From Candidatus Parcubacteria bacterium (lineage in GTDB: Bacteria > Patescibacteriota > Patescibacteriia > Patescibacteriales > UBA12075): a DNA stretch of 13,965 nucleotides. The position numbers were made by a program, and so were the translations under genes. This document shows positions 564 to 13,964 of the stretch, piece by piece; position 1 is the stretch's first letter; each line of letters starts with the position of its first letter. The stretch lies in NCBI GenBank assembly GCA_023139655.1, contig JAGLNE010000095.1, positions 1-13,965 of the forward strand. Direction: 5' to 3'. The notes under the pieces are model-generated. The model worked only from the letters and a program-made list of their open reading frames with translations, was not told the origin of the DNA and searched no databases.

Positions 564-857
564 TTATCTTTGCCACCAATTAAAAAAATCACCTGTCTTT
601 TTTAATAAATATCCAAATACTAGAATTGATATACCTGCACTTGCATATATATTATACAATCCACCGTCAGGGAAATATGTGATAAATAAATAAATCCCGC
701 CGATCATCATACCGACTCCCAAAATAATTATAACTTTCCAAAATTTTCCCGAAGAGGTACGTTTACTTGATTCACCTACCAACAAAAAACCCATAACCAA
801 AATGATTACTCCGCTTACTAATCCTTGAATAAAATTTTTATCAAAAAAATCGTCCAT
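564..857 (-). CDS. Small membrane protein, three predicted TM segments
   Basis: 97 residues, starting at an ATG. Hydrophobic stretches fall at about residues 10-28 (GLVSGVIILVMGFLLVG), 40-60 (KVIIILGVGMMIGGIYLF) and 70-86 (YASAGISILVFGYLL). The first loop is basic (SSKRTSSGK) and the C-terminus is aromatic (FFNWWQR). No family is recognised. It is the last gene of the minus-strand operon and starts 5 bases after the stop of the 280-residue membrane-anchored protein, so it is very probably cotranscribed with it. Three hydrophobic spans in under 100 residues would suit a membrane effector or subunit, but that is inference. Confidence 0.72.
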   Translation of the reverse strand: MDDFFDKNFIQGLVSGVIILVMGFLLVGESSKRTSSGKFWKVIIILGVGMMIGGIYLFITYFPDGGLYNIYASAGISILVFGYLLKKTGDFFNWWQR

Positions 858-862
858 AATTT

Positions 863-1705
863 TTAATTTTTTGAAAATTTTTCAAACGATCTTTTTTCTA
901 CTTTTCCAATGCTAATTTTTACTAAATATTTTATTTCTTCATCAATTCTATCTACACACGCAAGTGTTCTTCTGTATTTTTCTTGTTCGTTTTTATGTTT
1001 GAAATATTTATACCACGTACCTTCGTATTTCCAGTAATTCAAACGAGCTTTCCACCATTTTTTTCTCAATAAATCATTATAAATTTTGACTTGGTTTAAT
1101 ATCTTTATGCCCAATTGTATATTAATATCAGTAAATTGACTAAGGGCATTCTTGAAGCTTTTAATATTATTCGCATAACTTGTCCTTTGATCGTCTGGAT
1201 CGGGTCGCAATGAAACCATTCGCTCATTTTGGCTTATTAAGAAAGAAAAATCGTTTTTAAATTCTTTTAGTTGCTCGTTTGTAGATTTAATCCCAGAATC
1301 AGCAATTAGTATCTTATTATGCAAATAATAACTTCTTACTTTAAAAGTTGGGAGGTTGTTGTCGAAGAAAATCTCGCGAAGTGCTGGAAAGTTTGTTCTA
1401 TCAAAACAATATGAGTTTGTGTTTTTATTACTATTAATTTTTTCAATTAACCAAGTCAACCTATCATTAAAACTCTTCATCTCCTCTCTTACTACATGCA
1501 AATCATTTAGTGTTCGTGTAATTGAAATTTCGATTATTCTTAGATACTCTTTTTTCTCAAGCCTTGCGGCAATATTTGATTTAATAAAAAACACAAACAG
1601 TGATCCAATAATAGCAATAAATGCTCCCAGGGCGCTACCTATTAATGTTTGCCATTTTTCAAAAAAGTCATTATTAAAAATTCCCATAATTTTATTGGTT
1701 ATCAT
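863..1705 (-). CDS. Membrane-anchored helical protein of unknown function
   Basis: 280 residues. One N-terminal hydrophobic segment spans about residues 21-41 (LIGSALGAFIAIIGSLFVFF). A long, charged, mostly helical region follows, with coiled-coil-like heptads at about 45-95 and 140-170. A Trp/Tyr/Lys-rich patch lies at about 215-240 (KKWWKARLNYWKYEGTWYKYF). This architecture implies a single-pass membrane protein with a cytoplasmic helical domain. The chosen ATG at 1705 overlaps the end of the upstream DUF5677-like gene by 14 bases. The in-frame ATG at 1687 (Met7) would abolish the overlap and is a credible alternative. No family is recognised. Its place in the KAP/HEPN operon suggests it works with those proteins at the membrane. 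Confidence 0.75.
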   Translation of the reverse strand: MITNKIMGIFNNDFFEKWQTLIGSALGAFIAIIGSLFVFFIKSNIAARLEKKEYLRIIEISITRTLNDLHVVREEMKSFNDRLTWLIEKINSNKNTNSYCFDRTNFPALREIFFDNNLPTFKVRSYYLHNKILIADSGIKSTNEQLKEFKNDFSFLISQNERMVSLRPDPDDQRTSYANNIKSFKNALSQFTDINIQLGIKILNQVKIYNDLLRKKWWKARLNYWKYEGTWYKYFKHKNEQEKYRRTLACVDRIDEEIKYLVKISIGKVEKRSFEKFSKN

Positions 1706-2447
1706 TTAAATTTTTAACATATTCATCTGACAGGGTAGTTAATTCATCTTCGATTCCCCACTTAAATAGCTTGCTCACTTCAAGTGTTATATGGTACATA
1801 AAATCGAATGACGCTACTAAAGTTTCATCTATAAGGTTGTCACTTGGCCCGATTCGAAAAATTAAGTCACTCTCACCCTCAACCGCATACTCATTCACGC
1901 TACGCGCGTTAGAGTGACTTAATTGGCATTGAATTTTGTAAACAGTGTAATAATTATCAATTCTTCCCACTTCTTCGGCCATATCCTTTATACTTTTATC
2001 TGACCAAGAAGTATTGCTATAGTTATACTCATCCTTTACTCTCTTGCACTCAGATTCAATTTCCTTAATGATGTTAGGATATTTCTTTTCTTTTTTTTCT
2101 AGAATGTCAATCATGTCTGGTTTGCTTTTTAAATAATCAAACATTTGTTTTCTGATAATCCAATCAAATTCAAAATATCTTTCCAGCCTCCCATCACTTT
2201 CATCGTTTAATATATAAAGACAGTTAATGAGTAATTCAAAAAGGGTTCTACAAAGCACAAAAGCGTCCTCACCATGCCTTTTTTCACATAGAAACATTAC
2301 GGAACTATAACTTTTTATGGCTTTTGCAATAACAAAAGCAAGATACATCTCTTTATTGGTCGATACTTTTTTGATGCTGTCTATTTTTTGATCAATCAAG
2401 CCATGTAATTGTCCGTTGTATTTTAGTAGCTCGCTTGTATTAATCAT
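1692..2447 (-). CDS. DUF5677-like protein (helical, possibly HEPN-related)
   Basis: 251 residues, with an ATG start 2 bases after the stop of the upstream HEPN-like gene. The pattern matches my memory of the DUF5677 family. A helix carries CRTLFELLINCLYIL at about residues 66-80, with Arg67 and Glu71. An Arg/Tyr-rich segment follows at about 87-97 (RLERYFEFDW), then a Trp-Ser motif near 148, and YYTVYKIQCQLSHSN at about 166-180 with His178. The spaced Arg...His arrangement inside helices resembles a degenerate HEPN fold, which would suggest RNA binding or cleavage, but this is an inference. No signal peptide or membrane segment is visible. It sits between the HEPN-like and the membrane-anchored genes, with translational coupling likely on both sides. 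Confidence 0.65.
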   Translation of the reverse strand: MINTSELLKYNGQLHGLIDQKIDSIKKVSTNKEMYLAFVIAKAIKSYSSVMFLCEKRHGEDAFVLCRTLFELLINCLYILNDESDGRLERYFEFDWIIRKQMFDYLKSKPDMIDILEKKEKKYPNIIKEIESECKRVKDEYNYSNTSWSDKSIKDMAEEVGRIDNYYTVYKIQCQLSHSNARSVNEYAVEGESDLIFRIGPSDNLIDETLVASFDFMYHITLEVSKLFKWGIEDELTTLSDEYVKNLNDNQ

Positions 2448-2449
2448 AT

Positions 2450-3007
2450 TTATATCTTAATAATATCATTGTATAAATACCTTATTTCTTTTTCTAGTTC
2501 TTCAATTTCTACTTTCAAAATATTTCCATTACCCACAATTTCAATAGCTAATGAATCCTCAGAAATATTTAACGATGCAGGGCCACTCTCCTCATCTGCT
2601 ATTCTTTGGTCCATATGTTCAATTGAATTACGTACTTTTTGGATTTCAGATGATGAGGTGTGTTTATTGGTAATTCTTTTTAATATTTTATTACATCTAG
2701 CGATTGCATTAATACAATTTTCAAGATGATTAATTATTACTGTAGTGTGTAATAGTTGACCCTTACCCCTTTTTATTATTTGTTTATAAGACAAACCATT
2801 CTCTTTCACCTCATCCAAAACAGCTTCTCTTGTCATTTTGTATTCATATATTGCTTTATCAACGAGACGGACAAGGACAGTTATATATTTCTCCATTTTA
2901 GGGTCTATATTTTTATACTTACCAGTAAGCAAGCCAGCAATAAAACATCCGGTAGCGTTCAGCTTCAAATCTGAAATATCTGGAATATTACATTTTGTTA
3001 CCAACAT
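2450..3007 (-). CDS. HEPN-like protein with Rx4H motif
   Basis: 185 residues, predicted mostly helical. It contains KVRNSIEHMDQRI at about residues 124-136. The core RNSIEH has Arg126, Asn127 and His131, matching the HEPN signature Rx4-6H with a polar residue after the Arg. In known HEPN ribonucleases this motif forms a composite active site in a dimer. The tail (about 155-185) has a short strand-like stretch (SLAIEIVGNG) and a final helix. HEPN proteins are common in toxin-antitoxin and anti-phage systems, where they cleave RNA. Here the gene follows the KAP NTPase by 13 bases and precedes the DUF5677-like gene by 2. The HEPN call rests on the motif and helical content only. Confidence 0.6.
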   Translation of the reverse strand: MLVTKCNIPDISDLKLNATGCFIAGLLTGKYKNIDPKMEKYITVLVRLVDKAIYEYKMTREAVLDEVKENGLSYKQIIKRGKGQLLHTTVIINHLENCINAIARCNKILKRITNKHTSSSEIQKVRNSIEHMDQRIADEESGPASLNISEDSLAIEIVGNGNILKVEIEELEKEIRYLYNDIIKI

Positions 3008-3020
3008 ATTAAATTATAAT

Positions 3021-5420
3021 TTATTTATATAATACTATCTTTGTATTTTTTAAATATGCTTCCCGGAAAATTTTAATACGCTTACATTCCTCCGTGTCGT
3101 ATACGCTCTCAATGTCTATAGAGTTTATGAAATCATAGAACTTTTTAGCATTAAAATCTTTAGCGAAGTTTCCTAGATTGCCACTAGCAAAATTATCCAT
3201 ATACAGCCAAAGTATGGATGGGAATACTTTTTTATTAATTGATAAAATATCAAATATGTAATTATTAATTTCTTCAGATTTTAAATACTTAAATAACATT
3301 ATTAATGCTACTCGTGGATGTTGGCCATTAAAAATATCTGCTCTTTTAGAAAATAGTAAATAAATTATTCGTTGTCTTAAAATCGTATCAAATTCTCTAA
3401 AAAAATCTTCGTGTTCGTCTTGGTTCCACCCTTTTCTTTTTTTATATGCTTCAATTAAATCATAGACAAAAAATATGTTCTCATGCTCCTTAATTAGATT
3501 TTTATAAAAGATTAATTTTGATTGTGTTATTTTTTTTCTTTCAATTTCTTGTTTTGGGTTTCTGGAATCGGGTTTATGATTATGCAAACGATCAATGGCT
3601 TTGAATATTAATCTTGCGCATTGAACGTAATTATTTTCTTGATTAAATTTATTTTTTTCATACAACAGTGTTGTATAACAATCTTTAATAAAAATTTCCA
3701 GAAAACTCTCCGGCATTTTATCAAGATGAATATGTATTTTTTCAATGTAGGACTGTTTAAGTGGATGAATTAAATCTCTTGAGAAAATTTCTTTTTTCTT
3801 TTCTTTAGACAAATTATTCCAATTGCTTAGTATTCGAAATATTTTTTTATCAGGTATATGTTTGTTTGGAACATCTTCTAGAAAATATTTATCAAATAAA
3901 TTTGGGTGGCAAATTTTTTGCTTATTCTCGAAATCATCATAATTGTGAATTACACTGTGATTATCAAAATAATGTGCAACCTCTGGAAATAATTTAAATA
4001 TATTTTCTTTAATATAATTTTGCACATCTTCTTTCTCGTTTTCAACTAAATCGTTAATGTGTTTTATAATTGAATCTTTCTCCCCCTGGTCTCTGTCTCT
4101 CATAGAAAAAAAACTGCCCTTTACATATACACCGTAATTTAAAGGAATGTCTGAATATACATAAGGATAGAATGTTTTAAATACATATAGTCTAAACAAG
4201 TCTACAACATTTACTTCGTCTTGAAGAGTTCTGTAGGCTATTTTAAAACTACTTAAAAATATTTTTACCTGTCTTATTGTTTTAAAACGCCAGTTAGCGT
4301 TTCTTCTCCATAGAAAAAAGAAAGTATTATCAATGACTTCTTTATTTAGGAGCTCGAAGTCTTTGTTGTCAACAATGCTTTTTATCGACTTTGCAAAATA
4401 ATCATTTATATCATCAAGGTCAGTATATAATTTGTATGTAAAATTTATTATTTTTTCAAGGTATTCGCTATCAGTTTTAAATTCATCCTTTAAGACTTCG
4501 CGCATTACTATTTGATCAAAAGATAAAACAAATATTATATTGTTTAAATTTTGAAACTCTCCAACTAACTTAAAGACTTCTAATGTTTTTTCTTTATTTG
4601 ATAAACGGTCAATATCATCTATGAAAATAATTAATTTTTTATTATCTAGTAATAGCTTACTTACAAAAATTTTCTTAGCATTTTCTAGGTTTATTTTTTT
4701 AAACGGTAAAGGTATTTTATATAATTCTTTTACTTGATCACTTATTATCTCAAGCAATAGCTTTGATTCGCTTTTAAGTTTATTTATTTTGCTTAATTCC
4801 TCAAAGAAACCTTCCATTATGGATTTTTCACAAGAAAAAAACCAGGGGTTAAAATCGAAAAAAATATAATCATTTCTACCAAAAATTTTTTTCTTTTTGC
4901 TTTGATATTCTTTTTTAGATAATTTGTCTCTATAAACGCGGTATAATAATTCATCTTTCACAAAGTTTATTACCGATGTTTTCCCTTCGCCCCACTTCCC
5001 ATCAATCAATAATGTAAAAGTGCTTTCTCCGTTTCTTTCAATAATTTTTGAGACGTCCTCAACAGTTTTTTTTCTTTCTAGTTTGTCTAAAAAAATATTT
5101 TCGACAGGTTGATCACCGTCCTTTTGAATGTCTTTGTAATTAAACAAAGCGATAAATTTATTTTTTATCAAAAAATATATTTCAATTAAAAACCATAAAA
5201 ACAAATAAATATAAAATAAAATAATTGCATATTTTAAATTAAATATAATACTTTTTATTTTTTCCGGAAACAACAATTCAAGTTTAAGTGTCTGTTCAAA
5301 AATATCATTAACAATAAAAATAATACCATCCCAATACTTAAAAATTAAGTATGTTAATACTAGGAATAGAAGGTTATGAATATTAAGTTTGTATAAAAAC
5401 CTTAAAATTCTTTTTAACAT
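3021..5420 (-). CDS. KAP-family P-loop NTPase, membrane-anchored
   Basis: 799 residues from the ATG at 5420. A GTG at 5432 would add four residues but lies in the T-tract of the leader hairpin, so I prefer the ATG. The N-terminus has two hydrophobic spans, about residues 15-37 and 61-85. The NTPase core follows: Walker A GKWGEGKTS (about 141-149), the KAP-characteristic FDFNPWFF (about 188-195), Walker B LIIFIDDIDRLS (about 263-274), and a sensor-like strand FVLSFDQIVM (about 297-306). The remaining ~490 residues are mostly helical and unrecognised. In KAP NTPases the transmembrane segments put the ATPase on the inner face of the membrane; members include F-plasmid PifA, which excludes phage T7. 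It is the first gene of a five-gene operon with HEPN-like and DUF5677-like proteins, so a sensor or switch role is plausible but not shown. Confidence 0.88.
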   Translation of the reverse strand: MLKRILRFLYKLNIHNLLFLVLTYLIFKYWDGIIFIVNDIFEQTLKLELLFPEKIKSIIFNLKYAIILFYIYLFLWFLIEIYFLIKNKFIALFNYKDIQKDGDQPVENIFLDKLERKKTVEDVSKIIERNGESTFTLLIDGKWGEGKTSVINFVKDELLYRVYRDKLSKKEYQSKKKKIFGRNDYIFFDFNPWFFSCEKSIMEGFFEELSKINKLKSESKLLLEIISDQVKELYKIPLPFKKINLENAKKIFVSKLLLDNKKLIIFIDDIDRLSNKEKTLEVFKLVGEFQNLNNIIFVLSFDQIVMREVLKDEFKTDSEYLEKIINFTYKLYTDLDDINDYFAKSIKSIVDNKDFELLNKEVIDNTFFFLWRRNANWRFKTIRQVKIFLSSFKIAYRTLQDEVNVVDLFRLYVFKTFYPYVYSDIPLNYGVYVKGSFFSMRDRDQGEKDSIIKHINDLVENEKEDVQNYIKENIFKLFPEVAHYFDNHSVIHNYDDFENKQKICHPNLFDKYFLEDVPNKHIPDKKIFRILSNWNNLSKEKKKEIFSRDLIHPLKQSYIEKIHIHLDKMPESFLEIFIKDCYTTLLYEKNKFNQENNYVQCARLIFKAIDRLHNHKPDSRNPKQEIERKKITQSKLIFYKNLIKEHENIFFVYDLIEAYKKRKGWNQDEHEDFFREFDTILRQRIIYLLFSKRADIFNGQHPRVALIMLFKYLKSEEINNYIFDILSINKKVFPSILWLYMDNFASGNLGNFAKDFNAKKFYDFINSIDIESVYDTEECKRIKIFREAYLKNTKIVLYK

Positions 5421-5437
5421 ATTTTTAAACACAAAAA

Positions 5438-5458
5438 CCCCATTATTAAAGTATGGGG
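5438..5458 (-). terminator. Hairpin with T-tract between the receiver gene and the KAP gene
   Basis: On the minus strand CCCCAT / ATGGGG form a 6-bp stem around a 9-base loop, followed directly by TTTTTGTGTTT. This is a standard intrinsic terminator for the lipoprotein/receiver transcript whose last gene ends at 5504. It also lies downstream of the predicted KAP promoter, at the very start of that transcript, so it could instead attenuate the KAP operon. Confidence 0.7.
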
Positions 5459-5467
5459 CTTAACCTA

Positions 5468-5503: not shown

Positions 5504-5932
5504 TTAAGCTAGTTTTTGTGTTATTTTGCCAATTTTTTTATTCACCTGTCCGACAACACGCTTAGCCCAGCCATCAATATCATTCCAATCTTTCCATGCC
5601 ACTGTCTTTATCCCATTTTTAACCGCCTGATCATTGTATTCCGGGATAGCAGAAATACTTATAATTTTATCCGGGTTAAACTTTGAAAAATTAAGAACGT
5701 GAAACGAGCCGCCTTGCTTACAATCTCGATCAAGAAGGATTATATCGAAATTATTTTGCACTATTTTGTTTACATAGTCTTCAATTTGGGAGTATTCAGA
5801 AAATAATGTAATCGCAAATTCCACGTTATTCAAATTTTCCTCCAACTCAAACAATTTATCTGTCAAAACAGAAATTGCTTTTAGCTCATCTTCAAAAATC
5901 AAAATTCTTATTGTTTTAAACCTCTCAGACAT
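5504..5932 (-). CDS. Stand-alone receiver-domain (response-regulator-like) protein
   Basis: 142 residues, essentially one CheY-like receiver domain with no output domain. The first strand RILIFEDE carries the acidic pair Glu14/Asp15. NFDIILLDRDC gives the likely phospho-acceptor Asp68. KIISISA (about 89-95) supplies the conserved Ser/Thr position. The Lys of VAWKDW (Lys114) fits the conserved lysine after strand 5. All positions needed for phosphorylation therefore appear present. No histidine kinase gene is adjacent, so the phosphodonor is unknown. It starts 21 bases after the upstream lipoprotein gene, suggesting one transcript, and ends before the terminator at 5438-5458. An unphosphorylated pseudo-receiver acting by protein binding is the alternative. 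Confidence 0.75.
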   Translation of the reverse strand: MSERFKTIRILIFEDELKAISVLTDKLFELEENLNNVEFAITLFSEYSQIEDYVNKIVQNNFDIILLDRDCKQGGSFHVLNFSKFNPDKIISISAIPEYNDQAVKNGIKTVAWKDWNDIDGWAKRVVGQVNKKIGKITQKLA

Positions 5933-7789: not shown

Positions 7790-9232
7790 ATGGATAAGAA
7801 TTATATTGAAAAAATACCTCCTAATAATATTAAAATTGAACAATTGCTTCTCGGAGCGTTAATTGTCGATAGTAATCTTTCGGAAAAAATTTCATTTATT
7901 TCAAGTGATGATTTTTATAATATTTCGCATAACACAATCTTTGAAGCGATGAGAAAGCTAAAGGAATTCGATATTATAATCTTGGCAAATTATCTTAAAG
8001 AAAAAAAATTACTGACAAAAATAGGTGGAGATACTTATTTAGCTAAACTTTGCAATTCCATAACAACAACCGGAACTGGTAAAATCATTCGGCACGCTGA
8101 AATAATCAAGAAAAAATCTCGATTAAGGAAAATGATTAATTCCTGTCATCTGATAATTGATAAAGGATATAAGGAGGAAAGTGAAATTAATGAATTGATC
8201 TCTGACTTTGAAAATACAAAAAATGAGTTATTATTTAATGCTAAAAAAAATATTTTTAAAATCGATAATTTAAAAGATGTTGTTAAACAAAATTATGGTG
8301 ATTATGAATATTTAGTAAAAGACCTCATACCAAAAACAGGAATAACAGTAATATCATCTCGGCCCAAAAGCGGGAAAAGTTGGTTTGTTCTTCATATTTT
8401 AATTCAAATTTCTAGCGGACAAAAAGTTTTTGGCCATTACCACACTCAAAAAAGTAATGTTCTTTTGATAGACGAAGAAAATTCCTTGCGGGGAATACAG
8501 AGAAGAACTAAAAAAATCACGGAGAACACGCCCGATATTCCAATTATTAATTTCAAAGGTTTTAGAATTGACAATCGCGAACATAGATTATGGTTAATTG
8601 ATTTTATAAAAGAAAAACAAATAGAGCTTGTCGTATTCGACAGCTTTCGTAGATTGCACGATCTAGATGAAAATAAAAGTGAAAACATCACCGAATTATA
8701 TAATTGTTTTAAAGAAATTATGAAAACCGAAGTTGCCGTTCTCCTTGTTTATCATAATAAAAAGGCTGACAGACATCAGAAAGTTAACATAGAAAGTCTT
8801 AGAGGTTCAATTGATATTTCCGCAATATGCGAATCAATATTATTATTGGACACTAAGTCTTCAGGGAGCTTACCGGGCAGTTCAACGACCGTTTATCCGA
8901 TTTTAAGGGAAGAATCAAATTCAGGGCCGTTTACGGTTGATTGGTACGACAATGAAGAGGGCAATCAAATAATTTTTGATTACAAGGGCGGACAAACAGG
9001 GAATATAAACAAAATTGAAGAAGCTAAAAAGTTTGTTTTAGAAACTTTAGATAAGGAAAGAAGGGAATTTACAATAAATGAATTTATCGACAAAAAAAAT
9101 AATGCATCGCTTGATTTTGGGATAAGCGCTATAAGGGAAGCTTGTCGAATATTGGTTAGTGAATATTTGCTTGATGCGCGCATGGGTGATGGTAAATTTA
9201 ACAGAACAAAATACTACTCCCTAAAAATTTAA
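7790..9232 (+). CDS. DnaB-N / RepA-like hexameric helicase fusion
   Basis: 480 residues. Residues about 10-110 follow the DnaB N-terminal domain: IEQLLLGALIVD, DDFYNISHNTIFEAMRKL, KIGGDTYLAKL. The helix before DIIILANYL looks a few residues shorter than usual. From about 155 on it is a RecA-fold ATPase of the RepA/AAA_25 type: Walker A SRPKSGKSW (about 190-198), Walker B VLLIDEE (about 224-230), a second acidic strand LVVFDSFRRLHD (about 280-291), the RepA-like VYHNKK (about 320-325) and a possible arginine finger in SLRGSIDI (Arg338). The last ~80 residues look like a winged helix. It should unwind DNA as a hexamer to replicate the element. It is not ordinary DnaB, whose C-terminal motifs are absent. 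Confidence 0.85.
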   Translation: MDKNYIEKIPPNNIKIEQLLLGALIVDSNLSEKISFISSDDFYNISHNTIFEAMRKLKEFDIIILANYLKEKKLLTKIGGDTYLAKLCNSITTTGTGKIIRHAEIIKKKSRLRKMINSCHLIIDKGYKEESEINELISDFENTKNELLFNAKKNIFKIDNLKDVVKQNYGDYEYLVKDLIPKTGITVISSRPKSGKSWFVLHILIQISSGQKVFGHYHTQKSNVLLIDEENSLRGIQRRTKKITENTPDIPIINFKGFRIDNREHRLWLIDFIKEKQIELVVFDSFRRLHDLDENKSENITELYNCFKEIMKTEVAVLLVYHNKKADRHQKVNIESLRGSIDISAICESILLLDTKSSGSLPGSSTTVYPILREESNSGPFTVDWYDNEEGNQIIFDYKGGQTGNINKIEEAKKFVLETLDKERREFTINEFIDKKNNASLDFGISAIREACRILVSEYLLDARMGDGKFNRTKYYSLKI

Positions 9233-9263: not shown

Positions 9264-9381
9264 TTTAACAAATTAACAAATGGTCAATTTTTTTGTTAAG
9301 CGTTTAAAGAAACGCGCTTAACAAAATATCTCAAATTGATTTGTTGGTTTGTTTAACAAATGATTTAACAAATGACAAATG
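9264..9381. repeat. Iterated TTAACAAAT motifs between helicase and terminase-like gene
   Basis: TTTAACAAAT or TTAACAAAT(G) occurs at 9264-9273, 9273-9282, 9352-9362 and 9364-9374, with a truncated copy ACAAAT at 9375-9380. Inverted forms (ATTTGTT, TTTGTT) are interspersed, and the terminator arms also contain GTTAA/TTAAC. The fourth copy covers the ATG at 9372. The motifs could be iterons of a replication origin next to the helicase, or operators for the terminase-like HTH protein. The evidence is repetition only. Confidence 0.5.
9291..9330 (+). terminator. Strong hairpin after the helicase gene
   Basis: TTTTGTTAAGCG (9291-9302) and CGCTTAACAAAA (9315-9326) are a perfect 12-bp inverted repeat. 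The loop can add CGTTT/AAACG pairing. T-rich and A-rich outer arms make it usable on both strands, though no long T-run follows on the plus strand. It lies about 60 bases after the helicase TAA and separates it from the terminase-like gene. Confidence 0.55.
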
Positions 9382-9809
9382 AGATAGTAAAGCCAAGTGA
9401 AATTGATAAACATATCGCTTTTGCTGAGTCATTTATTTCAAATAACCGTAATGCCACAAAAGCTTACAAGGATATTTATGGTGATCATTTGAGCGATGAA
9501 GTTGCCTCTGTGTCAGCTAGCAGATTGTTAAGAAATGATAAGGTTAGAGTCTATTTACGCAGGAAATTTAGCAAAATCAAGCTAGATGCCGACTTCATCC
9601 TTAGAGAGATAAAAAATATTGCCGAGACCTCGCAACATGATAATACCAGATTAAAAGCATTGGTTTGGCTAGGCAAAGCTATGGGGGTGTTCAGCCAGGA
9701 TTATATTGAGCAGGAGCGAATTATAGGTGAGCCATCAGAAAAAGTAAAAAAATTCATTGATGCTGTTATTGAAATAAAAAAGAATAATCCTCAACCTAAA
9801 ATTAATTAA
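9372..9809 (+). CDS. Terminase small subunit-like DNA-binding protein (orphan)
   Basis: 145 residues. It follows the Terminase_2 pattern: FISNNRNATKAYKDIYG (about 21-37) is the first helix-turn-helix, VASVSASRLLRNDKVRVYLRR (about 44-64) is the characteristic second block, and a long helical part with ILREIKNIAE (about 76-85) and RLKALVWLGKAMGVF (about 93-107) precedes a charged tail. Phage small terminases bind packaging sites and form rings that work with a large subunit; no large-subunit gene is present here. The ATG overlaps one of the repeated motifs and has no Shine-Dalgarno. The protein may instead be a regulator or replication factor. Confidence 0.72.
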   Translation: MTNEIVKPSEIDKHIAFAESFISNNRNATKAYKDIYGDHLSDEVASVSASRLLRNDKVRVYLRRKFSKIKLDADFILREIKNIAETSQHDNTRLKALVWLGKAMGVFSQDYIEQERIIGEPSEKVKKFIDAVIEIKKNNPQPKIN

Positions 9810-10092: not shown

Positions 10093-10109
10093 TATTGGTA
10101 AAAAAATAT

Positions 10110-11732
10110 ATGAAACAAAATTTATTAAAAGCCGTGCTATATGCGCGCGTGAGCACTAAGGAGCAAGAAGACACCGGGTACTCTTTGCCATCGCAAGTTA
10201 AATTTTTGAATGATTATGCGCGCAAGAAAAATATGTGTGTTAAGAAAATTTACGATGTTTCGGAGAGTGCGAGCGGTAAAAAGCTGAGAGCCACTTTCAG
10301 CGATATGATGGATTATATAAAAAAGAACAAAATTAAAATTATAATTTGCGAAAAGGCAGATCGATTAAGCAGGAATTTTAAGGATATGGTTTTGATTGAC
10401 GAGTGGCTGGAAAAAGATGAGGAAAGACAAATACACTTAGTTAAAGACAGCCTTGTGCTTCATAGCCGTTCTCGCTCCCAGGAGAAATTAAATTGGGGGA
10501 TAAGGATGTTATTTGCGAAAAACTACATTGATAATCTAAGTGAAGAAGTAAAGAAAGGACAAATTGAAAAATTAAAACAAGGCTGGCTACCATCCACTCC
10601 GCCTCTAGGATATAAAACCATTGGAGAAAAAGGACGCAAAATACATATCGTTGATGAAAAAAAAGCGCCGGTTATCAAAAAGATGTATAAAATATATTCA
10701 AAAGGCAACCACTCATTGAAAAGACTAACAGAAATACTTATAAAAGACGGATTAAAAAATCGGCACGACAAGCCGGTTAGCAGAAGCCAAGTTCACTCTT
10801 ATCTTAATAATCCATTCTATACTGGTAAAATTATTTGGAAAGGTAAAGAGTATGAGGGCAAACACGAACCGCTTATAAGCCAAGACCTGTGGGGCAAAGT
10901 GCAAGACGTACTGCATAAAAAAGGCACGCCGATATATCAAAAGCATAATTTTATTTTTAGAGGCTTATTTAAATGTTCGGAATGTGGCGGTGTGATCGCA
11001 TGGGAGAAACAACGTAGTCATTGGTATGGGCATTGCAATAGACACCGACCCTGCTCGCAAAAAGATTTTTACCGCTATGAACATATACAAAATCAGTTAC
11101 TTAAAGAAATTGACAAGATAACTCCCAAGTCAAAAAAGTTAATTGAATGGGTTGTAAAAGCGCTCAAGGCAAGCCATCAAGACGAAATAGTTTATCATAA
11201 TAGTGTCTTGAGCGAGTTAAATAACAGACTGTCAAAAACAAAAAACAGGCTGGATAAGATTTATGATGACAAGTTGGATGAGGAAATCACAGAGAAAAAA
11301 TACAGGAACTTGAAGCATAAGTATGAAAAGGACGAGAAAGAGGCAATAAAAGCCATAGAGCGCCATAAGACGGCAAATTCTAAGTACTATGACTTCGGCG
11401 TGCTCGTACTTGAAGTTACAAAGCAGGCAAAGACGTTATTATCAGACATAAAAAAGCCGGATGAGCTAAAAAGAGAGTATTATAATATCATATTTAATAA
11501 GCTAGAGATTACTGGCAACACGGTTGACCTTGAATTGAACAAAGCGTTTAAATTGATAGCGGATTTTAATTCGAAAATAGAAAATATCAGCAATTCCGGT
11601 AAAATCATTTTCGAACATCAAGATATCGGCTTAGATAAAAGAAAAACAGGCACTTTCGTGCCTGTTCGTTCTGCGGTGCTCGCGTATAGGGACAGCTTCC
11701 GAACTTTTTTATGTAATGTTAAAACAAGCTAG
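10110..11732 (+). CDS. Large serine recombinase / integrase
   Basis: 540 residues from the ATG at 10110; a TTG at 10095 would add five residues. Domains: a resolvase catalytic domain (about 5-145) with YARVSTKEQ (nucleophile Ser15, Arg13) and EKADRLSRN (Arg85, Arg88); a recombinase domain (about 148-270) with PPLGYK and PFYTGKIIWKGK; a zinc ribbon with Cys289, Cys292, Cys309 and Cys315; then a coiled coil (about 365-420) typical of the synapsis-controlling arm. It should catalyse attP x attB integration through a 5'-phosphoserine intermediate. The length is normal for the family. The last ~25 codons are GC-richer than the rest and contain terminator hairpins, so the natural C-terminus may have been altered. 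It converges with the next gene, 1 base between stop codons. Confidence 0.93.
   Translation: MKQNLLKAVLYARVSTKEQEDTGYSLPSQVKFLNDYARKKNMCVKKIYDVSESASGKKLRATFSDMMDYIKKNKIKIIICEKADRLSRNFKDMVLIDEWLEKDEERQIHLVKDSLVLHSRSRSQEKLNWGIRMLFAKNYIDNLSEEVKKGQIEKLKQGWLPSTPPLGYKTIGEKGRKIHIVDEKKAPVIKKMYKIYSKGNHSLKRLTEILIKDGLKNRHDKPVSRSQVHSYLNNPFYTGKIIWKGKEYEGKHEPLISQDLWGKVQDVLHKKGTPIYQKHNFIFRGLFKCSECGGVIAWEKQRSHWYGHCNRHRPCSQKDFYRYEHIQNQLLKEIDKITPKSKKLIEWVVKALKASHQDEIVYHNSVLSELNNRLSKTKNRLDKIYDDKLDEEITEKKYRNLKHKYEKDEKEAIKAIERHKTANSKYYDFGVLVLEVTKQAKTLLSDIKKPDELKREYYNIIFNKLEITGNTVDLELNKAFKLIADFNSKIENISNSGKIIFEHQDIGLDKRKTGTFVPVRSAVLAYRDSFRTFLCNVKTS
11645..11666 (-). terminator. Minus-strand terminator inside the recombinase 3' end
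   Basis: AACAGGCAC (11645-11653) / GTGCCTGTT (11658-11666) is a perfect 9-bp stem. Read on the minus strand the loop is GAAA and the stem runs straight into TTTTTCTTTT. It is correctly oriented to end the transcript of the two-gene minus operon stopping at 11734, about 70 bases downstream of that stop, although it lies within the recombinase coding sequence. Confidence 0.75.
11664..11710 (+). terminator. Possible plus-strand terminator inside the recombinase 3' end
   Basis: GTTCG (11664-11668) / CGAAC (11700-11704) brackets a GC-rich 31-base loop with minor internal pairing, and is followed by TTTTTT (11705-11710). If active it would end recombinase mRNA about 20 bases before its stop codon. 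The stem is short, so this is tentative. Confidence 0.3.
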
Positions 11733-11733
11733 A

Positions 11734-12621
11734 TTATAAATGTATTTTTTTCTCAATAGGCTTTTTTGTTTTATTACTTACAATTTTAAAAAGATATTCT
11801 TTCTTTGAATCTTTGTGTATTAAAATTGAATCAACTAATATGTCTACCGGAGGTTCTTTTACTCTCAACATTCGCAATTCAATTTCAATACTATGGTCAT
11901 CACTACTAATAATTTCTCTGAAAGGTGGTTTATTACTCCCCCTATTTATAGTTATTGGCTTGTTGTAAATACTAAACATATCTTTTTTCTCAGGGTACTC
12001 CATTATTTCATCTTCTAAAAAACCGTCAAAAAAATCACCGAGCTCAGGTTTTTCATGTATATCATAATTTGAAGAAATTCTTATATTTATATCACTATCA
12101 ACTTCATTCCCGATATTTTGTATTAAAAAATTAACTTTAATATAATCCTTGTTAATCCTTACATACTCTTCTGTCCAATCAATATATTTTTTTAATTCGT
12201 CCATCCTTCTTTCTGGTGTATCAAATCCAAATCTAGTTATTGATACCAAGATGTTTTTCTCTCCTTCAATTTTTGTAGTGATTTCGTCAATCTCTTTTTT
12301 TGCTTCATCTGATCTATTTTTAAACCAATCATTGAATATAGTTTTTTTTACAGTTATTTTATAATCAACTTTATTATCAATTCTTTTCTCCAGTATTATT
12401 TTTTCATCGTTTATTTTTTTAAAAACAGAGTAACTAGAAATAATCCAAAATACAAATAAATACAGAAACCAAACCCACCATTTTTTAAACCAAAAATTTT
12501 CAATTGAAAATGGTAATAGTGGCTGGACTAAACTAATCAAGATTAAAAAACCTCCGGCGGAAATAAAAAACCAATGTGCGGATACTTTAAACAAGTATTT
12601 TAAAAAGTTATTAATTTTCAT
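11734..12621 (-). CDS. Two-TM membrane protein with cytoplasmic domain, unknown
   Basis: 295 residues. Two N-terminal membrane segments lie at about 16-38 (HWFFISAGGFLILISLVQPLL) and 48-67 (WWVWFLYLFVFWIISSYSVF). About 225 soluble residues follow: a helical part with acidic/basic repeats (about 70-150), then a strand-rich part containing VKVNFLIQNIGNEVDSDINIRI (about 162-183), reminiscent of a beta-sandwich. No family is recognised. The ATG shares one base with the TAA of the preceding zinc-ribbon gene (TAATG), which implies translational coupling. It converges on the recombinase and uses the terminator at 11645-11666. Confidence 0.75.
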   Translation of the reverse strand: MKINNFLKYLFKVSAHWFFISAGGFLILISLVQPLLPFSIENFWFKKWWVWFLYLFVFWIISSYSVFKKINDEKIILEKRIDNKVDYKITVKKTIFNDWFKNRSDEAKKEIDEITTKIEGEKNILVSITRFGFDTPERRMDELKKYIDWTEEYVRINKDYIKVNFLIQNIGNEVDSDINIRISSNYDIHEKPELGDFFDGFLEDEIMEYPEKKDMFSIYNKPITINRGSNKPPFREIISSDDHSIEIELRMLRVKEPPVDILVDSILIHKDSKKEYLFKIVSNKTKKPIEKKIHL

Positions 12622-12875
12622 TATTGTGCTTGCTTAAAAATTTTGTATTCTTGTATGATATGTCCTATATTATCACAAGTAATTAATTCAGTTGCCCCAC
12701 TTTTTACAAACCAAATAGTGGCTTCTTTTCCTTCTTCATCCATTGTCTTTAACAGCATGTCTGTGATTTTGTATTCACCACAATTAACACATTCTACTTT
12801 ATATATCATGTTATCACTATTATTCGTTATTATCGTGGACTGATTCTCTTTCTCACATAAAAAACATTTTGCCAT
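12621..12875 (-). CDS. Small zinc-ribbon protein
   Basis: 84 residues with two CxxC knuckles, CFLC (Cys4, Cys7) and CVNC (Cys29, Cys32), in the context VECVNCGEYKITD, a typical zinc-ribbon turn. The rest is an alpha/beta tail (residues about 40-80) with no further Cys pair (Cys67 is single). It probably binds one Zn and a nucleic acid or protein partner, but the specific role is unknown. It overlaps the downstream membrane-protein gene by one base, so the two proteins are probably made in fixed ratio and may work together. No Shine-Dalgarno is visible before the ATG. Confidence 0.72.
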   Translation of the reverse strand: MAKCFLCEKENQSTIITNNSDNMIYKVECVNCGEYKITDMLLKTMDEEGKEATIWFVKSGATELITCDNIGHIIQEYKIFKQAQ

Positions 12876-12920
12876 ATACTTGGTTTAAATTAATTATTAG
12901 CCTCAAAATCTTTTAATATT

Positions 12921-13004
12921 TTAAGATATTTTTTGATAATTGTCATCGTGCTTATTCAGCTTCGGCCTGTTAATTTTAGGATATAGGAAGTTTTGTTTAT
13001 TCAT
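12921..13004 (-). CDS. Possible 27-residue leader ORF
   Basis: ATG at 13002-13004, TAA at 12921-12923, product MNKQNFLYPKINRPKLNK and nine more residues: basic and Asn/Lys-rich. The predicted transcription start of the promoter at 13011-13039 falls almost on this ATG, so translation would be leaderless. It could be a leader peptide for the zinc-ribbon/membrane-protein pair, a remnant of a longer gene, or chance. Support is weak because any AT-rich spacer yields short frames. Confidence 0.25.
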   Translation of the reverse strand: MNKQNFLYPKINRPKLNKHDDNYQKIS

Positions 13005-13010
13005 TATTTT

Positions 13011-13039
13011 ATTTTATAAATATTTTATACTTCTTGCAA
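13011..13039 (-). promoter_or_regulatory. Predicted promoter for the zinc-ribbon / membrane-protein operon
   Basis: On the minus strand there is a -35 TTGCAA (13034-13039), a 17-base spacer and a -10 TAAAAT (13011-13016). Spacing is ideal and the -10 matches the consensus at five of six positions. The start point is near 13004, about 130 bases upstream of the zinc-ribbon ATG. Confidence 0.55.
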
Positions 13040-13175
13040 AAGATTAATTAACCTTATACGAACTAAATTTTAAAATATTAGTCTTTGCAATGGTTTGAGA
13101 TGCCAGAGTTATTATTTGTTTGTACATCCAATTTTCCTGAATTACATATTGTTAGTTTAAAAATGTTTTAACAAA

Positions 13176-13964
13176 CTAATTATCCAGCATCACAAGAAAG
13201 CCCTCAAACTTTTCATGCTTTTTTAATTCATGACGCAAAAACACTTGTAATAAAACCCTTTCTTTTAAATAATTTTCTTGTTCTGTTTTGCCATCAATTT
13301 TTTTAAGCCACGGTGGAGATTCCGCGATAAATTTATTTAAGAAATTTTTATCTTCAGAAAATGACTTAATTTTTATATAAAAAATGTCTTTTCTGTATTT
13401 TTCATCTTCCTTTTTTTTAATTGGTGAATGCTGAACAAAATTTCCCAGTCTAGATTTATTTAAAATCAAAACTTCATTAACATTTTTATTAATCGCGACA
13501 GAAAAAACCGGTATCTCATCTTCTTTATAATTATAATAGCCCTCAAAACCTGCTACATCTAATTTTTTGCAATCACTGTGCCACTTAGGTTTAAAATTGT
13601 TCGAATTACTAAAAAATTTATAAATTGATGCATGGGTTGTGAAAATAACTGCTTTAGATAAAACATCAATTTTATCCAAGGCCAAATCAATAGTACTTCC
13701 CTTGGTTGATTTGCAAAATTTTTCCAATTTTTCAAATATGTCAGTATTTTCAAACAACGCCAAAGTCCTTCCATAATTCTCACCCCAATCGGAATAATGT
13801 ATATGCCATTCATCGAAAAATGCCGATTTATAATCAACTCTATTTATACCTTGGTTTTTTATTTTTCCAGAGTAAAAACCTTTTTTTTGATCTACAAATA
13901 TTTTAAGATAACTTTTAAAAATATTTCTGAATGTTGCTACTTCATAAAACTCCTTTGATAACTT
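13176..13964 (-). CDS. Unrecognised protein, 5' end beyond the right edge
   Basis: The minus-strand frame is open from the right edge of the window to a TAG at 13176-13178, giving at least 262 residues. A TTG at 13763 could be read as a start, but 67 further in-frame codons upstream encode sensible protein (for example FFDEWHIHYSDWGENYGRT), so it is internal. The protein is soluble-looking and Lys/Phe-rich with mixed helix and strand. It contains aromatic motifs such as GFEGYYNY (about 138-146) and ends in KHEKFEGFLVMLDN. There is no membrane segment or signal peptide in the visible part. I do not recognise the family. Its promoter must lie outside the window; the region 3' of it is the AT-rich spacer. 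Confidence 0.7.
   Translation of the reverse strand, partial: KLSKEFYEVATFRNIFKSYLKIFVDQKKGFYSGKIKNQGINRVDYKSAFFDEWHIHYSDWGENYGRTLALFENTDIFEKLEKFCKSTKGSTIDLALDKIDVLSKAVIFTTHASIYKFFSNSNNFKPKWHSDCKKLDVAGFEGYYNYKEDEIPVFSVAINKNVNEVLILNKSRLGNFVQHSPIKKKEDEKYRKDIFYIKIKSFSEDKNFLNKFIAESPPWLKKIDGKTEQENYLKERVLLQVFLRHELKKHEKFEGFLVMLDN

Follow-up and report, generated by a model that had tools for sequence, protein, structure and literature searches.

PifA of plasmid F is a KAP NTPase that acts in phage exclusion (T7), and to our knowledge the phage sensing and the targets of PifA-type KAP proteins are poorly understood. QatABCD likewise contains a KAP-like ATPase, QatA. In the excerpted text of PMC11846954, Tmn is described as a KAP NTPase with two transmembrane (TM) domains and a role in defence, and in that of PMC3710099, HEPN ribonucleases (RNases) are described as carrying an Rx4-6H motif at the end of helix 3, with a polar residue typically following the arginine. 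Here we describe a five-gene operon on contig JAGLNE010000095.1 of a Candidatus Parcubacteria bacterium (assembly GCA_023139655.1). The window analysed is the whole contig (C144), 13,965 bases of a 1.19-Mb genome held in 148 contigs. The operon is probably defensive and joins a tethered PifA-like KAP protein with a new HEPN-like family, a combination that we found once.

Results

The operon and its KAP protein

The five open reading frames lie on the minus strand at 3021-5432, 2450-3007, 1692-2447, 863-1705 and 564-857; adjacent frames are separated by 13, 2 and 5 bases or, in one case, overlap by 14 bases. These coordinates reproduce the layout given in the initial annotation, and the five-gene operon is real. 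The first gene (3021-5432) encodes a KAP P-loop NTPase. Its KAP domain scores over the Pfam cut-off (PF07693, E = 1.1e-23; 84.3 bits vs 20), which together with a Walker A and a DDxDR motif places the protein in this family; GKWGEGKT (Walker A) lies at residue 145, FNPW at 194 and DDIDR at 272. Two hydrophobic spans, at 23-41 and 70-88 by hydropathy, precede the Walker A motif. The reading made at the outset, of KAP motifs behind two TM spans, therefore holds, and the KAP assignment holds as PifA-like: the best PADLOC profile is PifA (8.2e-33), aligned over KAP residues 227-573 and profile positions 144-491 of 720. PifA is also the top PADLOC match for 5/5 related KAP proteins scanned.

The KAP domain is common to PifA and our protein, which differs in its two N-terminal hydrophobic spans and in the four genes downstream. 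Related KAP proteins without spans before the Walker A motif (L089 and L088) match the PifA profile nearly full-length and far better (6.5e-91 and 1.2e-82). Spans before the Walker A motif are present in four of the seven other rows of our KAP alignment (A2; P0044-P0047) and absent in three (P0048-P0050), and the relative at L088 also lacks them. Tmn is similar in being a KAP family member with TM spans, but in our protein both predicted spans precede the Walker A motif at 145; with an insertion of the spans taken, as we infer, to be what defines Tmn, span position sets the protein apart and we rejected this identity. We also rejected QatABCD. QatA is matched weakly (PADLOC 3.9e-5, NCBIfam 2.2e-5), but the NCBIfam score is 23.4 bits against a cut-off of 600, and no QatB, QatC or QatD profile matches in the operon. 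Elsewhere in the same genome, contig C116 (L049) carries another, distantly related KAP-like gene (1.4e-5) together with two metallo-beta-lactamase-like genes recognised by eye.

KAP translation probably starts at the ATG at 5420 rather than at the GTG at 5432, because a terminator-like hairpin (minus strand, about 5437-5459; 6 bp, then TTTTT) ends right before the GTG and because the database copy of the protein has 799 amino acids (aa), that is, begins at the ATG. The hairpin was read by eye and is absent from the terminator scan's list. The Walker A residues K147 and T148 singled out in the initial annotation are numbered from this ATG; counted from the GTG, the lysine is K151. The single upstream promoter proposed there corresponds to a plausible TTGACT-16-TAATAT site (5495-5468); this match carries no evidence, because the window contains 86 such sites and shuffled sequences contain 76.4 on average. 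Identical copies of the KAP protein are found on 2 contigs, as are those of the 185-aa protein encoded by the second gene, with a longest contig of 43,131 bases for both, which makes an assembly artefact unlikely.

A HEPN-like family

The second gene (2450-3007, minus strand) encodes a 185-aa protein, here HEPN185, for which no TM span is predicted and no Pfam, PADLOC, PHROG or NCBIfam family is significant. At E <= 1e-3 its family has 41 further members; the named relative that matches best comes from a Parcubacteria metagenome-assembled genome. Two members of the family, P0003 and P0023, have the same source and a longest contig of 1425 in both cases, which suggests tandem paralogues. We aligned the protein with 38 relatives (A1, 39 rows; P0037, P0041 and P0042 were dropped as odd in length or weak, and P0001 as the protein itself). 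R126, E130 and H131 are invariant in 39/39 rows, as are R47, D50, K51, E96, N97 and R104 among others. The Rx4H motif noted initially is R126-NSIE-H131. The protein contains another R-x4-H string, beginning at residue 111, but family-wide invariance is seen only for R126 and H131. The residue after R126 is mostly N or D, with H or I in single rows, so that the family shows the HEPN motif, a conserved Rx4-6H with a polar residue typical after the arginine. The structure model is a confident helical bundle (pLDDT 92.9), in which helix 120-130 carries R126 close to its end and is followed by a break, at H131, before helix 132-137. This modelled position fits the HEPN description as excerpted from PMC3710099.

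A Pfam scan of all 39 members returned 46 families at E <= 1, with three HEPN-named families among the 25 listed: HEPN_Apea in 5/39 members (best 0.0061), HEPN_LA2681 in 5 (0.012) and pEK499_p136 in 2 (0.021). All of the matches in the family are weak, and the window's own protein has no HEPN-named Pfam match. The HEPN-named matches are suggestive because HEPN families make up only a small fraction of Pfam. When ten relatives were scanned singly, a HEPN match appeared in P0035 only, where HEPN_Apea at 65-149 (E 0.18) spans the RNSIEH at 133. The 185-aa family thus resembles the RNases of these three HEPN families in its R-x4-H at a helix end, usually with N or D after the arginine, but differs from them in that its profile matches are weak and no PDB fold match was obtained. 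The HEPN call of the initial annotation is likely, given the motif and the weak profile matches, but no fold match proves it. We regard the protein as HEPN-like and as a candidate, probable RNase.

The DUF5677 protein and the membrane proteins

The third gene (1692-2447, minus strand) encodes a 251-aa DUF5677 protein, as had been assigned (PF18928, 1.8e-31; 109.9 bits vs a cut-off of 27.1). The HEPN-like label that it had also been given is not supported. A conserved Rx4-6H is missing, the invariant residues being R67, E71 and H178 instead (13/13 rows), and a profile comparison with the 185-aa family found no similarity (0.1% probability). The model, built from two sequences, has a pLDDT of 55.4 and is too poor for a judgement of the fold. 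The single hydrophobic span over the cut-off (62-80) carries R67 and E71, and because these residues are invariant it is probably a buried helix rather than a TM span.

The last two genes encode proteins with predicted TM spans, in agreement with the two membrane proteins expected from the initial reading; counting KAP, the operon has three. The 280-aa protein (863-1705, minus strand) combines one TM span (21-39) with a basic soluble part (net charge +16) and matches PADLOC Mem_02 weakly (0.0034). It has relatives in 3/87 other genomes (L122, 1.9e-40; L123, 7.7e-10; L124, 1.1e-4). The 97-aa protein (564-857, minus strand) has two predicted TM spans (hydrophobic spans 9-27 and 42-60) and no family over the cut-off in Pfam, PADLOC, PHROG or NCBIfam scans. 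Several TM proteins were considered as further 280-aa relatives and rejected. A 212-aa protein downstream of DUF5677 at L037 gave an hhalign value of 0.3% once it was removed from the profile, the earlier 99.8% being discarded as circular since the profile (A7) contained that protein; profile comparison likewise found no relation for the TM proteins of L002, L093 and window 11734-12621.

Distribution of the gene set

In a phylum sample of 379 genomes, HEPN185 occurs in 2 (its own and, weakly at 7.5e-4, G199), the KAP subfamily in 14, own included, and DUF5677 in 23. The KAP protein has no match among 97 relatives from genus to order. We fetched 119 loci around relatives of these genes; many overlap one another, nine own-window loci were excluded, and a few members already known (L005, L053) escaped the open-reading-frame filter, so that coverage is incomplete. 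These loci contain no recognised relative of the 97-aa protein. The full set recurs in no other genome searched, and a conserved five-gene system was accordingly rejected. Recurrence of the genes together, on which the initial annotation had staked its reading, was not found in the genomes and loci searched.

In a plasmid collection, the KAP query matched 24 records, with identities of 20.7-29.2% among the 20 matches listed; of three plasmid KAP regions read, the first has nucleotidyltransferase and ThiF genes nearby, the second a restriction endonuclease, and the third regulators and a primase. The same collection held no match for HEPN185, for the DUF5677 proteins of the window and L034, or for the 280-aa protein. 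Scans of viral contigs gave one locus each for KAP and HEPN185 and no match for the window's helicase, DUF5677 or receiver protein, and phage records queried with the L034 DUF5677 protein only gave no match. A KAP NTPase combined with HEPN was not found among the literature matches listed, in a search that left subscription papers mostly outside, and the gene set may be in print. In the same literature, DUF5677 is mentioned by a single paper on an unrelated subject.

Defence neighbourhoods of relatives

For HEPN185, 5 loci were read (L002-L006); for DUF5677, wide flanks were available in 18/22 other genomes, with short loci only for G306, G463, G174 and G369; for KAP, 7/13 other genomes were fetched. 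On a viral contig (L006), a HEPN185 relative lies 15 bp behind Mod- and Res-type genes. At L002, a TdeIII endonuclease and a methylase pair stand 2.5 to 5.3 kb away from another relative, whose gene is 3 bp before that of a 173-aa TM protein, and at L003 the relative is about 6 kb from an HsdR fragment. DUF5677 forms the last gene of a cyclic-oligonucleotide-based antiphage signalling system (CBASS)-type operon at L034, with a CD-NTase (PADLOC 3.3e-100) and Cap15 (Pfam 7.5e-15). It also stands inside a type I restriction-modification (R-M) operon (L037), overlaps the end of a type ISP enzyme (L046), shares a same-strand run with GmrSD-type and EcoRI-type methylase genes (L052) and precedes an OLD-like ATPase (L048). 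No such defence gene was recognised at the remaining 13/18 DUF5677 loci, toxin-antitoxin-like genes (as at L038) not being counted. Of the three relatives of the 280-aa protein, one follows a ResIII helicase after 3 bp (L122), one follows an OLD-like ATPase after 140 bp (L123), and the third belongs to a run of HsdR, HsdM, reverse transcriptase (UG13b, 4.4e-140) and PD-DExK genes beside a large serine recombinase (LSR) gene (L124). Taken together, relatives of the three families occur singly in loci of type I, II and III R-M, type ISP, CBASS, OLD-like and reverse transcriptase systems, and these operon-level contacts are striking.

The Cap15-containing CBASS at L034 offers the closest comparison for the third gene. 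In a tblastn search of the sample, the window's DUF5677 protein matches the last gene of this operon best (30.5% over 226 columns), but no CD-NTase match is found in the window's operon. This five-gene CBASS-type operon (L034 7878-12686) also encodes 277-aa and 556-aa proteins of no clear family and is possibly a CBASS with unknown accessory genes.

In a conservative count, in which queries from the same locus were left out, 2/5 HEPN185, 2/18 DUF5677 and 2/3 280-aa loci score, compared with 1/10 for a 142-aa receiver-like protein (rec142), 1/6 for the LSR and 0/7 for KAP. The rec142 set is an imperfect negative control, since L112 itself stands in a run with an HsdR-like gene. The one positive among the six LSR loci from other genomes (L069) has type I R-M-like genes.

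The carrier element and other features of the window

On the plus strand, the window encodes a DnaB-N and AAA_25 (RepA-like) helicase of a mobile element (7790-9232; PF13481 1.8e-22, PF00772 4.8e-20, phrog_3123 6.5e-30), a terminase-small-subunit-like (TerS-like) protein (9372-9809; PF03592 6.6e-8, phrog_51 2.4e-11) and the element's LSR (10095-11732; PF00239 2.3e-21, PF07508 6.1e-17, phrog_95 integrase 1.1e-73). The LSR family is present in 61/98 genomes (relatives and own) at E <= 1e-3. In the closest relatives fetched (L065-L071; 7/7), the LSR gene and an opposite-strand tRNA gene (Asn 3, Gln 3, Ser 1) overlap at their 3' ends; L071 is a second LSR copy in our own genome. The window has no tRNA gene and its LSR gene continues into other genes, and a search of the genome that allowed 3 mismatches found no further copy of the junction sequence. 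Because of these observations, the window may show the unintegrated form (attP), or the element may use another target. The end of the LSR gene, both in the window (11644-11732) and in L065-L071, contains an internal palindrome-like stretch.

A phage or satellite is a possible carrier, given the TerS-like gene and the 43-kb twin contig. No capsid, tail or large-terminase gene was recognised in the window, where the genes at 11734-13763 and a lipoprotein gene were outside the PHROG scan. TerS-like small proteins, recognised by eye, also stand beside receiver-like genes at L109 (2873-3319) and L113 (6768-7127), with no large terminase noticed; TerS-like genes in these bacteria may not need to signal a phage.

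The rec142 gene lies upstream of KAP (5504-5932, minus strand). Its family occurs in 13/379 genomes of the phylum sample, and a 49%-identical relative adjoins KAP in G176 (L089). A KAP-receiver pair as part of the system was rejected: KAP is adjacent in two cases (own and G176) and not in ten others fetched (G290 was not fetched), and outside these two genomes the neighbours of rec142 vary. A LOOT RNA, an Rfam small RNA (RF03000; 6247-6361, minus strand; 81.3 bits vs 46.4, E 2.1e-14), lies just upstream of the short lipoprotein-like gene, in the interval that separates the KAP operon from the replication genes. At 11734-12875 on the minus strand, two genes that overlap by 1 base encode a protein of 295 aa with two TM spans and a zinc-ribbon-like protein of 84 aa, with no family over the cut-off.

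Discussion

Our analysis leads us to favour, with nearly as much confidence as doubt, that the operon serves defence or superinfection exclusion and is carried as cargo by an LSR mobile element that is prophage- or phage-satellite-like. The membrane-located KAP ATPase would act as the sensor and switch of infection and, upon infection, would release or activate the soluble HEPN-like protein. This protein would then probably cleave RNA through R126/H131, leading to growth or translation arrest before the phage matures. Given that DUF5677 and the single-TM 280-aa protein are both reused in unlike loci, they may be accessory parts exchanged among defence systems that tune or anchor the effector, and the two-TM 97-aa protein may serve as another membrane effector or as an anchor. 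A bolder form of this proposal, in which the operon is a new multi-protein system where a membrane-tethered PifA-like KAP controls a new HEPN-like RNase family, with interchangeable accessories also recruited by CBASS, R-M and OLD-type systems, for superinfection exclusion on a Patescibacterium phage or satellite, is doubtful at present.

Several results weigh against a defensive RNase system under KAP control. No other genome of the phylum sample is on more than one of the HEPN185, KAP and DUF5677 lists, and of the four families HEPN185, KAP, DUF5677 and 280-aa, no two are found in the same locus (0/119 fetched loci). In addition, structure searches of the 185-aa model gave no PDB fold match proving HEPN, and the HEPN185 relatives at L004 and L005 have no recognised defence neighbour. 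The initial annotation had proposed to look for proximity to known defence genes; three of the parts do have relatives in defence loci, singly, but enrichment near such genes is not proved statistically, least of all for DUF5677.

The same lack of co-occurrence supports the view that the operon is accreted cargo, with a KAP gene that functions by itself, as PifA does, and with HEPN-like, DUF5677 and membrane genes that arrived behind it on the same element as independent modules. The locus at L088, where a KAP relative adjoins an LSR gene and the other operon families are not present, points the same way. However, the near-zero gaps and the overlap across five same-strand genes leave hardly any room for promoters and argue for joint expression, and we regard accretion as unlikely, if credible. 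It is improbable that the operon instead encodes a membrane complex that serves the mobile element in a role other than defence, such as replication, segregation or surface attachment to a host cell. Such a role is consistent with three proteins with predicted TM spans, the KAP NTPase among them, and with the absence of scoring defence neighbours at all seven KAP loci in the conservative count, but it is at odds with the PifA-like nature of KAP and with the defence genes near members of three accessory families. A toxin-antitoxin-like core, with the HEPN-like protein as a toxin restrained by the neighbouring DUF5677 protein and KAP and the membrane genes separate, is suggested by the 2-base gap between the two genes and by HEPN toxins with an adjoining antidote (HEPN/MNT) known from excerpted literature, but HEPN185 and DUF5677 relatives are never neighbours in the fetched loci and we consider this the least probable explanation.

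Under the favoured reading of the operon as defensive cargo, the arrangement of a tethered PifA-like KAP directly followed by a candidate RNase gene raises the question of whether KAP switches a HEPN-like nuclease. As reported in the excerpted text of PMC6509639, CRISPR-Cas is rare in Patescibacteria, and other defences would therefore matter there. The 185-aa family, with 41 other members and no Pfam family over the cut-off, and the reuse of the DUF5677 and 280-aa proteins suggest that parts are exchanged between systems. The most interesting general point is this apparent traffic of the same small accessory genes among the defence systems of ultra-small bacteria.

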